NCBI GenBank assembly: GCA_029882975.1
Contig: JAOUJW010000007.1
Coordinates: 1 to 64,000 of the forward strand
DNA from: Gammaproteobacteria bacterium
GTDB taxonomy: Bacteria > Pseudomonadota > Gammaproteobacteria > SZUA-152
DNA: 64,000 bases
Reading direction: 5' to 3'
In this document: in pieces, positions 46,915 through 51,960 of the stretch
Numbering within the stretch: position 1 is the first letter of the stretch
How the letters are laid out: the number at the start of each line of letters is the position of its first letter
Program-made: the position numbers and the translations under genes
The notes under the pieces: model-generated
The model's input: the letters and a program-made list of their open reading frames with translations, nothing else
Databases searched by the model: none
What the model was told of the DNA's origin: nothing

Positions 46915-47208
46915 ATGGTTCAGTACTCTGAAAAGCGAGACTATTTTCGAATCAATACCGATGCAGAGCTCACTTATCGTCAGACCGGCCAATCTGAAAC
47001 GCACCAAGGTCGCTGTATTAACTTAAGCGGTGCCGGAGTTCTGTTCAGCGCCCACACTGACTACGCACCGGGGACCATCCTGGATATCAACCTCACCCCT
47101 GAAAAAATTCTGGTGGCACCGTTTAATGCCATAATCGAGGTATTACGCACCGAAGCCGCAGATGATGAAAGCTACCTTATCGCCGGCCGTTTTACCGAAA
47201 CCCATTGA
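46915..47208 (+). CDS. PilZ domain protein
   Basis: A 97-residue single PilZ domain. The N-terminal KRDYFRI holds the RxxxR c-di-GMP switch, and the CINLSGAGVLFSA segment the D/NxSxxG motif, so c-di-GMP binding is likely. AGGAG seven bases upstream supports the ATG. It faces the flgT-like gene convergently. It may control motility or surface functions, but the output partner is not evident. Confidence 0.93.
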   Translation: MVQYSEKRDYFRINTDAELTYRQTGQSETHQGRCINLSGAGVLFSAHTDYAPGTILDINLTPEKILVAPFNAIIEVLRTEAADDESYLIAGRFTETH

Positions 47209-47220
47209 CAACTGCCCGCC

Positions 47221-48534
47221 CTAAGGCGACGCATCCTCGTAACGCAATATATCGCCACTGACCAAGCGCTGTCCTTTACCTAATATTTCTCCAACGGCAA
47301 AACCCGGTTGCACCGATTTGATCAACACCGTTGCCACCGGTAACTCCTGTGCCCCGAGCCAATGTCCGGCTCGGGCATTGAATACCGCAGCACCTTGCTG
47401 ATAAGCGGTAAAACGATGTCCGGCTTTAACCCGCGCCGCGGCACCACTGTCAATAAAGACCTGAGCCCCCTGCACCTGCACCACGCGGGTGGAAAACGGC
47501 AACTCACGCAGGTTTTGATCCAAACGACTAACCAATTGCAGCAGAATCTTGTTGATTTCCTGACCTACCGGCGCAGCAAAAAATTTATCCGCCATCACCG
47601 GTGTACTCAAGGGAAAATCAAAGGGACGATCCACCCATACCGAAGCATTAAAACGATGCCGCTGTAACCGCAATCCGGAAATACCATCCCAAAGCTGTAC
47701 TTCCAACTCCACATGCCGAACAGTAATGTAGAGCGCATGTGCGGTTTTACCCATGTCCCTTACCGTACCCGTCAGCAGAAACTGCACCCCCAGCTCCCGC
47801 GCCAATTGCGACATCATTTCCGTTTCACTCACACCCAAGCCCTCGAAGGCTTGTGCGGATTGCGACAACAGATAGGAAGTTGCATCTACGGTGCGGTACG
47901 CCCCGGTACGATCCAAACGCTGCAACAACTCTTTTGCCAGCAAAACCTCCAGATCCGGCATATCATGAATTTGCAGACGATCTGCAATCTGAAACTGCGT
48001 CACTGCCAGGGACCGTCTCAAACCATCGTTTACAGCTAAAGCCGTAGAACCGGAAGCAGGCTCTCTATTGTCACCATGCAATCGCAGCGCCGCTGAATTC
48101 GCCGTTGCATTGGCCAATAGCGGCGCCGCCATAGTGGCCGTTTTACTGTCCTCAACCTGCGCCCGAATCAACACCGTATAAATCCTGTTCGCTGCATCTA
48201 TCCATTCATCCAGAACTTGCAGTTTGCGTACAGACGCCATCGCTCGCACACTGACCTTATCACTTACCAGGGAATGGTCTTCCATATCGCTGCGCGACTG
48301 CACCACCGCATGTTGCTGTAAGGCGGCCTGGGCCATGGCGTCTTCTATGGCCTGTTTACGTGCGGCCACTTTTCCAGACGGGCCAATCACCGCCTGCCCC
48401 TTAACTTCAACAATGGTGACATCAGCAGCAACGGTGACATCGGTGGCGCTCTGTGCATGCACTGACCAAACCGAAACCAAACACAGGTACACCACCCACT
48501 GTCCCGGGAAAATCCCTATCCTCTGCAATAACAT
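47221..48534 (-). CDS. flgT: FlgT-like flagellar/envelope assembly protein
   Basis: A 437-residue protein with a signal peptide (ending near HAQS). FlgT N domain: GQAVIGPSGKVAARKQAIEDAM. A middle domain follows that matches the FlgO-like fold (LARELGVQFLLTGTVRDMG). The C-terminal part is beta-rich. In Vibrio, FlgT forms the H-ring around the motor. It lies seven bases after the FlgP-like gene, probably one operon, but no other flagellar gene is in view. I use the internal ATG, six bases after AGG; a GTG start five codons earlier is also possible. Confidence 0.85.
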   Translation of the reverse strand: MLLQRIGIFPGQWVVYLCLVSVWSVHAQSATDVTVAADVTIVEVKGQAVIGPSGKVAARKQAIEDAMAQAALQQHAVVQSRSDMEDHSLVSDKVSVRAMASVRKLQVLDEWIDAANRIYTVLIRAQVEDSKTATMAAPLLANATANSAALRLHGDNREPASGSTALAVNDGLRRSLAVTQFQIADRLQIHDMPDLEVLLAKELLQRLDRTGAYRTVDATSYLLSQSAQAFEGLGVSETEMMSQLARELGVQFLLTGTVRDMGKTAHALYITVRHVELEVQLWDGISGLRLQRHRFNASVWVDRPFDFPLSTPVMADKFFAAPVGQEINKILLQLVSRLDQNLRELPFSTRVVQVQGAQVFIDSGAAARVKAGHRFTAYQQGAAVFNARAGHWLGAQELPVATVLIKSVQPGFAVGEILGKGQRLVSGDILRYEDASP

Positions 48535-48555
48535 GCTCTCCCTATTCACTATCGG

Positions 48556-49461
48556 CTACCTGCTAAAGTAAAAGGAATTGCGTGAGGAAATGGGCGCGTC
48601 TTTGGAAGACTTTGAATCCGATGATTTCGTCTGAGCCGATTCATCTTCATCCACGTCATCCTCCGTTAAATGCCTTGCAGTAAATTCACGGCTTAAAAAG
48701 TCCGCCCCCATGAAAGACGAAGGCAATGCCTGATCGGCTCGCCCCATCTGCCCCATACAGTGTTTGTGTGCCGGGCGCAAAAAAGGCAGCACCCGATTGA
48801 GGAAATTTTGGTTTACTTCCATTTCCAAGGTGGTCTTGTAATTCCCGCTCGTCTGCGGCTCAATACTCACCACGCGTGCACCGCGCACATAACTGTCCAC
48901 CACAGTGCGATAACGGTCCTGCTCCACCACCATATCGCTCAACGATGTTGCGCCCCAAATGCGTAACCCCCCCACCATTTCCGCCATTACTCGATAGGCA
49001 TCAATTTTGGATGCCCGCTGAGTTAACAAGGAACGTTGCGCCTCAGGAAAGTAATATCGAGGCTGAGCACCGAAACCCACAGCCGACACTTTAATCCGGT
49101 CGACCTTTTCGCCGCTGGGCTTGGACTCAAAGTAAAAGGTATTTTCCAGGTCCGCCAACAACTGATCGCAACTCACAATCCCCTTTAGAGTCCCTGGAGG
49201 CAGCGCAAGGTTACCCCCTTGCACTCGGGATTTTGCAGTAACAGAACCGCGCTCACCAACGGCGTTAGTGTTCAAATCCGATACTCGATTGCTGAAAGGA
49301 ATCGCATCACCAACATAGCCTTCTTCCTGCTGCGGGTTCATGGCAGCGGATGTATGCGGATCCGCGTAGTTATTGCTATTGAAATTGGGAAACAAACGGC
49401 AAGCACTCAATGCCAGGAGCGCAAACACCAACAAGTTCCATCTTATCAATCGGGTTCTCAT
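48556..49461 (-). CDS. flgP: FlgP-like (LPP20) lipoprotein
   Basis: A 301-residue lipoprotein: signal peptide with lipobox LSAC (Cys near 21), then an LPP20/FlgP-like domain (about 100-230). The domain includes QRSLLTQRASKIDAYRVMAEMVGGLRIWG, of the FlgP type. The acidic C-terminal tail (about 255-300) is Ser/Asp-rich and not part of the family. In Vibrio, FlgP assembles with FlgO and FlgT in the outer-membrane rings. It is first in the operon with the flgT-like gene. Identity is by domain pattern, not by full alignment. Confidence 0.75.
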   Translation of the reverse strand: MRTRLIRWNLLVFALLALSACRLFPNFNSNNYADPHTSAAMNPQQEEGYVGDAIPFSNRVSDLNTNAVGERGSVTAKSRVQGGNLALPPGTLKGIVSCDQLLADLENTFYFESKPSGEKVDRIKVSAVGFGAQPRYYFPEAQRSLLTQRASKIDAYRVMAEMVGGLRIWGATSLSDMVVEQDRYRTVVDSYVRGARVVSIEPQTSGNYKTTLEMEVNQNFLNRVLPFLRPAHKHCMGQMGRADQALPSSFMGADFLSREFTARHLTEDDVDEDESAQTKSSDSKSSKDAPISSRNSFYFSR

Positions 49462-49546
49462 CCAAAATCCTGTCTCATCCTTGACTCAGCAATGATATTG
49501 CACAATCGGCACCAATTTTGCTCTGCTATTCAGCAACACCAGGGAA

Positions 49547-50440
49547 ATGCAACAAAGGATTGACAAACCCATGATTGGGCGCGCAAAACTCCAAAAAACA
49601 CAGTTAAAGCGAAAGGGATTGATCACGCTGGTCCTGCTGTTGTGTTGCCTCAATGGGCAAAGTTTTGCCGGTACATTGTTAGATAAATGTTACAGACAGC
49701 CCAGTCTGGTGCCACCACCGTTCAGCCCTACCCGCACGCTGTATGTATTCATCGACCAAACCACAAACTTAAATCAAAACATGAAAGACAGCATCACGAA
49801 CCTGGTGACCCAATGGGGTTCACAAGGAGAAAACGTGAAAATCACCCGGTTCTCCGCCAACATCAAAGGCCAGTACTCCGAACTGGTCTTTGACGAAGTG
49901 GGCAATAACCAACCCAGCGAAGCCTACTTGTTTCATATCCGCCCCGGTCCCAAAAGACGTCTGCTGAAATGCTTGCGCGAACGTGATAAATTATTTGATC
50001 AGAAATTAAAAAAAGCCTTAGACAAAACTCTAAAGCTCACCAATGACAAATTGCCCAAAACCAATTTATTACACGCCCTAAAAGACTTTGCTCGGCAAAT
50101 CGTTAAGGACGACAAGACCAAAGACAAAACCGTACTACTGGTCAGCGATGGCCTGGAAAACAGCAACTTGCTCAGCTTCCATCAAAGAGGCAGAATCCGC
50201 ATTATCAACTCCAGGCGCGCCTTACAACAAGCACGACGCAACAAACTCATCCCCAAGTGGAACCAAGCTACCGTCTACATGCTCGGCCTGGGCCACATCT
50301 CCGACAAAAATTTCTACGCCAGCCCCAGAGTTATCAACCCACTCAAAACCTTTTGGAAAAACTACTTCAAAGAAGGCGACGCCATAGTACACCCATACAG
50401 CCTGGGTACGCCGATGATATTGAGGAAGTCGTTGTTATAA
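49547..50440 (+). CDS. Secreted VWA-like protein of unknown role
   Basis: A 297-residue protein with a signal peptide (basic N-terminus to residue 23, hydrophobic 24-38, cleavage near FAG). The following domain fits a von Willebrand A fold: TLYVFIDQTTN (imperfect MIDAS start, D-x-T), then the Thr in PKTNLLHAL, then LLVSDGLENS and ATVYMLGLG strands. It is very Lys/Asn-rich. Start is tentative; an ATG eight codons in is an alternative. It is divergent from the flgP-like gene and upstream of the caspase-like gene by 184 bases. No family name is assigned. Confidence 0.75.
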   Translation: MQQRIDKPMIGRAKLQKTQLKRKGLITLVLLLCCLNGQSFAGTLLDKCYRQPSLVPPPFSPTRTLYVFIDQTTNLNQNMKDSITNLVTQWGSQGENVKITRFSANIKGQYSELVFDEVGNNQPSEAYLFHIRPGPKRRLLKCLRERDKLFDQKLKKALDKTLKLTNDKLPKTNLLHALKDFARQIVKDDKTKDKTVLLVSDGLENSNLLSFHQRGRIRIINSRRALQQARRNKLIPKWNQATVYMLGLGHISDKNFYASPRVINPLKTFWKNYFKEGDAIVHPYSLGTPMILRKSLL

Positions 50441-50469
50441 CCGCGTATGTTGCGATTCAATCCATTCGC

Positions 50470-50491
50470 CCCCAACGCAATGCGGTTGGGG
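50470..50491. repeat. Hairpin between two secreted-protein genes
   Basis: A 9-bp stem (with one bulge) is formed by 50470-50478 and 50482-50491 with a 3-nt loop. It lies 30 bases after the VWA-like gene. There is no T-run, so it is probably not a terminator; it may stabilise or attenuate the transcript. Confidence 0.4.
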
Positions 50492-50624
50492 AATACCCAT
50501 TCAGGTCGGCCCATCTAACAGTAACCTAAGCATGAAATTGCGATACAGGAGCAAGTTGGTATCCACAGTTGAAACTAAATTGTAGTTACTGCATCTAACC
50601 ATCAATTAAATGGTGTAAGCAGTG

Positions 50625-51455
50625 ATGAACAAACTACTGATCGCAGGGTTTATTTCTTGTTTTTGGGGAAACGCTGTAGCGGGCCAGGCGCGCCTGGAGC
50701 AGGATATTGCTGCGAATAAACCCATCGTTATTCAGCTTTCGGTGGCTTTAGCGGATAATAAAAACCAATGGATTGTCCCGGTGCCCGCTGCCATTGGTAA
50801 CGGACAGGATGCCAAACACAATCTCTATTGGGGCGCCCGATACGGGGTAAAGACTTACTTACAACGTGATGGTGGTTGGAAAACAGTAGCTTTACCGGAT
50901 CCCGGTGACAAACGTATCTTGGAACGCCGTGTATTGCACAAACTCTTCAATCGCAACGATAAAATCATCGATGTTTATCTGGTTGCCGATGCTTGGGACG
51001 GCCGTTTCATCAGCGACACAATTAAGCAGTTCCTGCGCTATAACGGTGGTCATGACAACATTACTGTCAACGCCAATGGAACGAAGATCAAAGCCGGTGG
51101 CAAAGCCCATTTAATCGCTTACATCGGCCACAATGCTTTAATGGACTACGGTGGCGCGAAGGCCTGGCTCAATGAAACACCTGTAGCCTCCCACTCAAAC
51201 CCGGATAATGATGCCATTGTACTGGCTTGTAAAAGCGGACCCTATTTCTCATCGCAACTGGAAAAGCTAAACGCCAAACCGTTGTTAATGACCACCGGCC
51301 TGATGGCCCCGGAAGCCTACTCTCTGGATGCTGCTATCAAACGCTGGATAGCCGGTGACACGGATCAGAATATCCGTAAAGCGGCAGCGGCGAGTTACCA
51401 CGCTTACCAAAAAACCGGCGTACGTGCCGCACAGCGTTTGTTTGGTTTGCCTTAG
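50625..51455 (+). CDS. Secreted protein of unknown role, candidate caspase-like hydrolase
   Basis: A 276-residue protein with a signal peptide (cleavage after Ala19). A strand ending in IAYIGHN holds His169, and a strand ending in AIVLAC holds Cys202, followed by KSGPYF. A strand then His-Gly or His-x, and strand then Cys about 33 residues later, is the pattern of clan CD cysteine peptidases (caspase, gingipain, legumain fold). The tail (MTTGLMAPEAYSL) also recalls C25 members. Identification is structural inference; I know no closer family. An ATG overlapped by GTG makes the start uncertain by one codon. Confidence 0.7.
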   Translation: MNKLLIAGFISCFWGNAVAGQARLEQDIAANKPIVIQLSVALADNKNQWIVPVPAAIGNGQDAKHNLYWGARYGVKTYLQRDGGWKTVALPDPGDKRILERRVLHKLFNRNDKIIDVYLVADAWDGRFISDTIKQFLRYNGGHDNITVNANGTKIKAGGKAHLIAYIGHNALMDYGGAKAWLNETPVASHSNPDNDAIVLACKSGPYFSSQLEKLNAKPLLMTTGLMAPEAYSLDAAIKRWIAGDTDQNIRKAAAASYHAYQKTGVRAAQRLFGLP

Positions 51456-51507: not shown

Positions 51508-51960
51508 TTATGGGTCGCAAAAATGGCTTATGGATTTGCTATTGACCTCTCGCCCAATCCACTCAGGATCTTTTTCCGGCATGGCTTCACTGCTGATCAG
51601 CTTCACCTGCGGCATGTTGTTTGATTCTACAAACTTATAGACGTGTCTGACGGATCTTTTGTAATCGCCAAGCTCAAGAAACTCATCCGTTTCAACAACC
51701 GCTTCTTTAACGCCGTCTCCGTCACAATCACGATAGTGCAATTTCCCAAAATCCGCACCCACCGTTTCGCCCATAATTATTGAAGGGTCAGAACGCATAA
51801 CCGGCGTAAATGTCACGTAACGATCATTGGCACCGGGGACATCTTCAATAAATATCACTTGTTTGAACGGGCCTTTGTTGTGCTCCTGAATAGAATAGAG
51901 GGCGATCGGCACAAGGATTGGTATAGAAAGTACCCCGGCAACGATATGCAGTTTTCGCAT
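51508..51960 (-). CDS. Unknown membrane-anchored protein with EF-hand-like loop
   Basis: A 150-residue protein with an N-terminal signal anchor (about 5-23) and a soluble extracytoplasmic domain. A YRDCDGDGVKEAVVE segment (near 76-90) resembles a calcium-binding DxDxDG loop of VCBS/FG-GAP or EF-hand type. No family is recognised. It stands alone, convergent with the caspase-like gene. Confidence 0.65.
   Translation of the reverse strand: MRKLHIVAGVLSIPILVPIALYSIQEHNKGPFKQVIFIEDVPGANDRYVTFTPVMRSDPSIIMGETVGADFGKLHYRDCDGDGVKEAVVETDEFLELGDYKRSVRHVYKFVESNNMPQVKLISSEAMPEKDPEWIGREVNSKSISHFCDP

Follow-up and report, generated by a model that had tools for sequence, protein, structure and literature searches.

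A candidate clan-CD-like cysteine hydrolase from an unnamed family of probably exported bacterial proteins, and its VWA-fold neighbour

Clan CD of the cysteine peptidases is best known for the caspases, the gingipains and separase. Its members have the caspase/haemoglobinase fold (PMC4357240), and eight families are listed for the clan, with a His-Gly at the catalytic His as its motif (PMC12445089). For gingipain R, Asp163 was identified as the residue that holds the P1 Arg (PMC4357240). This paper will focus on a candidate enzyme of this type, encoded by a gammaproteobacterium in a stretch of DNA of 64,000 nucleotides, here called the window. A previous reading of the sequence alone (the sequence-only reading) had suggested a secreted VWA-like protein followed by a caspase-like hydrolase, the two forming a system of their own. 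Both open reading frames, 49547-50440 and 50622-51455, were found as described. The features of the region are the following:

47221-48549, minus strand: flgT, whose position near the VWA gene is conserved (Pfam FlgT_M 2.5e-13, FlgT_N 6.4e-10; synteny)
48556-49461, minus strand: gene for a FlgP-like LPP20 lipoprotein, divergent from the VWA gene and kept beside it (LPP20 E 0.0018, under the curated cut-off; synteny)
49547-50440, plus strand: predicted exported VWA-fold protein with a reduced MIDAS (ORF of 297 aa; profile match to VWA_2)
50622-51455, plus strand: candidate exported clan-CD-like cysteine hydrolase (ORF of 277 aa; 43 homologues with a conserved dyad)
50820-50834, plus strand: family signature NLYWG, residues 67-71 (each residue 43/43)
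51126-51146, plus strand: GHNALMD motif, residues 169-175, with the codon of the putative catalytic His170 at 51129-51131 (conservation, n=43)
51222-51251, plus strand: LACKSGPYFS motif, residues 201-210, with the codon of the putative nucleophile Cys203 at 51228-51230 (conservation, n=43)
51508-51960, minus strand: gene for a hypothetical exported protein of 150 aa, convergent with the hydrolase gene and followed, also on the minus strand, by ssb (assigned by eye)

For the hydrolase gene, two starts are available, a GTG at 50622, which gives His170 and Cys203 and is used here, and an ATG at 50625, which gives the His169 and Cys202 of the sequence-only reading. A hydrophobic, signal-like stretch was recognized by eye at the N-terminus. 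The two residues were proposed to follow hydrophobic strands, and such stretches are indeed present, HLIAYIGH at His170 and AIVLAC at Cys203. The gene has a GC content of 0.50 and a GC3 of 0.525; these values are unremarkable, and a recent foreign origin by base composition was rejected.

No family was found for the protein in Pfam, NCBIfam, PADLOC or PHROGs. A sequence search of the PDB with the hydrolase family returned only antibody chains with E-values of 0.37 or worse, which were judged to be chance matches. However, a set of 43 homologues was assembled from Acidobacteriota, Gammaproteobacteria and Bacteroidota, and their distribution is patchy. In the Acidobacteriota, homologues (including locus L002) were identified in 18/297 genomes of the phylum and in 25/162 genomes of one class, about 15% of that class, while their occurrence in the Gammaproteobacteria and Bacteroidota is scattered. 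Besides the window's own genome, three of the 369 genomes of the gammaproteobacterial class contain a homologue, and the gene is absent from all 23 other searched genomes of the window's own family. Homologues are also present on replicons labelled as plasmids in Persicobacter, Bernardetia and Agarilytica; the Bernardetia and Agarilytica records annotate them as 'hypothetical protein'. A tree of the 43 sequences places the hydrolase of the window together with two further sequences from Gammaproteobacteria (support 96/91), inside a larger set to which four Acidobacteriota sequences belong as well (98/94). An origin from a phage or a mobile defence system was considered and rejected, on the grounds that neither a PADLOC or PHROGs match for the hydrolase of the window nor a relative in viral contigs or phage genomes was found; the lone PADLOC match among the family members was a weak one to the CARF_PDDEXK model (E 0.0066).

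Across the 43 homologues, the His of the dyad is conserved in 43/43 and the Cys in 42/43, so that the dyad is not a matter of chance. The sequence-only reading would have been given up if the two residues varied among homologues, and the counts just given show that they do not. The surroundings of both residues are conserved as well. Around His170, G169 is present in 43/43, G172 in 41/43 and D175 in 41/43, and the residue directly after the His is Asn in 30 and Asp in 13 sequences. Around Cys203, S205 is present in 42/43 and F209 in 43/43, and the preceding residue is Ala in 37/43, Gly in 3 and Cys in 3. The resulting family motifs are G-H-[ND]-G-L-M-D and L-A-C-x-S-[KR]-x-Y-F, of which the window, with GHNALMD and CKSGPYF, is a slightly atypical representative; also, 33 residues separate its His and Cys, compared to 26-30 in most members. 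Other near-invariant features are VALxDNxxQ together with NLYWG near the start, PEAY after the Cys, and the acidic residues Asp45, Asp175 and Glu231.

The copy on the Agarilytica plasmid (locus L008, 7866-8744) has an Arg in place of the Cys, GLAN in place of GLMD and LGR in place of LAC, and it forms the longest branch of the tree. Because of these features the copy looks decayed, and it probably represents a pseudo-enzyme.

For the comparison with family C25 (gingipains; PF01364), an alignment was built from 25 C25 domains of Acidobacteriota genomes. With hhalign, a profile of 23 hydrolase sequences matched C25 with a score of 33.3 and an E-value of 8.4e-4, at a probability of only 24%, and the alignment placed the family His on the His of the C25 GHG and the family Cys on the invariant C25 Cys. 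With the profile of all 43 sequences the score was 32.1 and the probability 19%, and the aligned stretch ended before the Cys. As controls, C25 against the related CHAT family scored 33.8, a reversed profile 16.4 and a VWA decoy 17.2, and the C25 score was reached by 0/150 column shuffles and 1/150 block shuffles. When 23 members were scanned with PF01364, the best match had 15 bits (E 0.015) in the same region, and no member reached the 23 bits of the curated cut-off. For family C14 (caspases, metacaspases; PF00656), a weak match with a score of 23.4 likewise placed the family His on the GHG His and ended before the Cys. CHAT (PF12770) resembles the family in the order of His and Cys and, by eye only, in the run that follows the Cys at the C-terminus; its profile score of 16.4, however, is the same as that of the controls (shuffle mean 14-15), and a CHAT relationship was discarded. 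AlphaFold models gave a pLDDT of 33 from one sequence and of 36 from a two-row alignment, too low for either model to be used.

The likeness to C25 consists of a His followed by a Cys, each ending a hydrophobic stretch, of the weak in-register profile match, and of a His-Cys distance that is 33 both in the window and in the C25 reference domain. The order of His and Cys and the predominant Ala before the Cys also fit clan CD, in which an Ala-Cys or similar is expected at the nucleophile. In contrast to C25, the protein is short and stands alone, it contains the unique NLYWG and PEAY, and its family has His-[ND]-Gly where C25 and the clan have His-Gly. It is for this last difference that the hydrolase is termed clan-CD-like here and is not filed as a member. 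Of the C25-like segment that had been suggested behind the Cys, part did not hold, since CKSGPYF is partly specific to the window and a Lys or Arg occupies the position of G206 in 37/43 sequences; what stood is the trace of C25 in the profile comparison and in the one relative matched by PF01364. The profile match to C25 favours a clan CD relationship, short of proof.

The upstream gene codes for a protein with a signal-like hydrophobic stretch at its N-terminus, as judged by eye. In a single-sequence Pfam search, all its VWA matches were below the Pfam cut-offs. However, a profile of its family (15 sequences) matched VWA_2 (PF13519) over the domain with an hhalign probability of 96.4% and an E-value of 1.3e-9, compared to 0.1% for the reversed control, which backs the VWA fold of the sequence-only reading. 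Of the MIDAS-type residues, D70, T/S72 and D201 are each retained in 15/15 sequences (Asp70, Thr72 and Asp201 in the window). Unlike in VWA_2, the DxSxS is shortened to DxT, its last Ser being variable among the 15 sequences, and the family has two conserved cysteines, C48 and C142, a pair that would be compatible with a periplasmic disulfide.

In seven gammaproteobacterial genomes, the window included, this VWA gene is divergent from flgP-flgT (window 46915-50440 and loci L017, L018, L146, L148, L149 and L151). In four of the seven, a small PilZ-like gene, recognized by eye, lies on the far side of flgT. The conserved arrangement makes the VWA protein a candidate accessory of the flagellar motor, and no paper about such an accessory beside flgP-flgT was found.

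A second branch of the VWA family occupies the last place in a conserved set of three genes, behind the genes for an OmpA-family protein, which carries a glycine zipper, and for a protein of about 520 aa, which has a zinc ribbon in Aliarcobacter. This three-gene operon, whose third protein is distantly related to the VWA protein of the window, is found on plasmids and chromosomes (L012 3786-7753, L013 3850-7753, L014 3921-7795, L015 3682-7759, L016 3679-7804; also L152 and L153). The plasmids are those of Pantoea, Paraburkholderia, Acidiphilium and Aliarcobacter, and further copies lie on an Aeromonas replicon and in two gammaproteobacterial genomes.

The VWA and hydrolase genes lie 181 bp apart on the plus strand and both products look exported, which speaks for a dedicated two-component secreted system as suggested by the sequence-only reading. 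Synteny, however, largely refutes the pairing and leaves such a system very improbable. The hydrolase is absent from the other six of the seven genomes with the VWA gene beside flgP-flgT, and in a genome of the same genus the VWA gene is directly followed by ssb, with no detectable remnant of a hydrolase gene. Conversely, no VWA gene was found near the other compared hydrolase loci (16 from Acidobacteriota, including L002, three from Gammaproteobacteria and three plasmid-labelled). Since the VWA gene is kept without the hydrolase and the hydrolase loci lack a VWA gene, the hydrolase gene is an independent occupant between the VWA gene and ssb. A recurring neighbour family was not identified at these loci either, except at three near-identical Acidobacteriota loci; in L125, L127 and L135, the ORF choice of the neighbourhood script had missed the family member itself. 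Between the two genes of the window, no terminator or promoter above chance was detected. For the convergent 150-aa protein, no Pfam match was obtained, and two relatives carrying the VWA gene contain no remnant of its gene.

The reading that we prefer, and hold to be rather likely, is that the product of 50622-51455 is a small, exported cysteine endopeptidase with a core of the clan CD type, which acts alone and represents a family so far without a name. The protein would be periplasmic, or perhaps lipid-anchored in some relatives, and its core would most likely be caspase- or gingipain-like. Cys203, placed after one strand, would serve as the nucleophile that attacks the peptide bond of the substrate, and His170, after the preceding strand, as its proton partner. 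By analogy to gingipain R, Asp45, Asp175 and Glu231 may line a pocket selecting a basic P1 residue. The VWA gene is a neighbour and belongs with flgP-flgT.

There is a minor but real chance that the protein is a hydrolase with a His-Cys dyad outside clan CD, either from another cysteine peptidase clan or with a different alpha/beta fold and the function of an amidase, esterase or transferase. The order of His and Cys is not exclusive to clan CD and is common to clans CL, CP and CQ (PMC12445089), and the His-x-Gly, the weakness of the profile support for C25 and a conserved start, VALxDNxxQ and NLYWG, without an alignable C25 counterpart would all agree with this; it is opposed by C25 and C14 being the only families that gave any in-register signal. 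That the family comprises non-catalytic envelope proteins, in which His and Cys are kept on a peptidase-like or other scaffold for structure or for the binding of a metal or ligand, appears improbable. The missing Cys of the Agarilytica copy would fit this explanation, but there the loss is accompanied by a general decay of the motifs, and His and Cys are otherwise conserved jointly, along with their surrounding loops, across three phyla.

The hydrolase belongs to a widely scattered, previously unnamed family of bacterial proteins that are probably exported cysteine proteases. Whether this is a new clan CD family beyond the eight listed (PMC12445089), whose members are minimal exported enzymes that stand alone and have His-[Asn/Asp]-Gly as their active-site motif, is in our view an evenly balanced question. 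If so, clan CD would gain a family that has escaped annotation, composed of small envelope cysteine peptidases that are apparently unfused and have an altered active-site motif. Such an enzyme would be a practical minimal model of the clan-CD-like type, and a hypothetical protein that occurs across three phyla would receive a name. Independently of this, the VWA protein, which travels with flgP-flgT, is a testable candidate for an accessory of polar flagellar motors.
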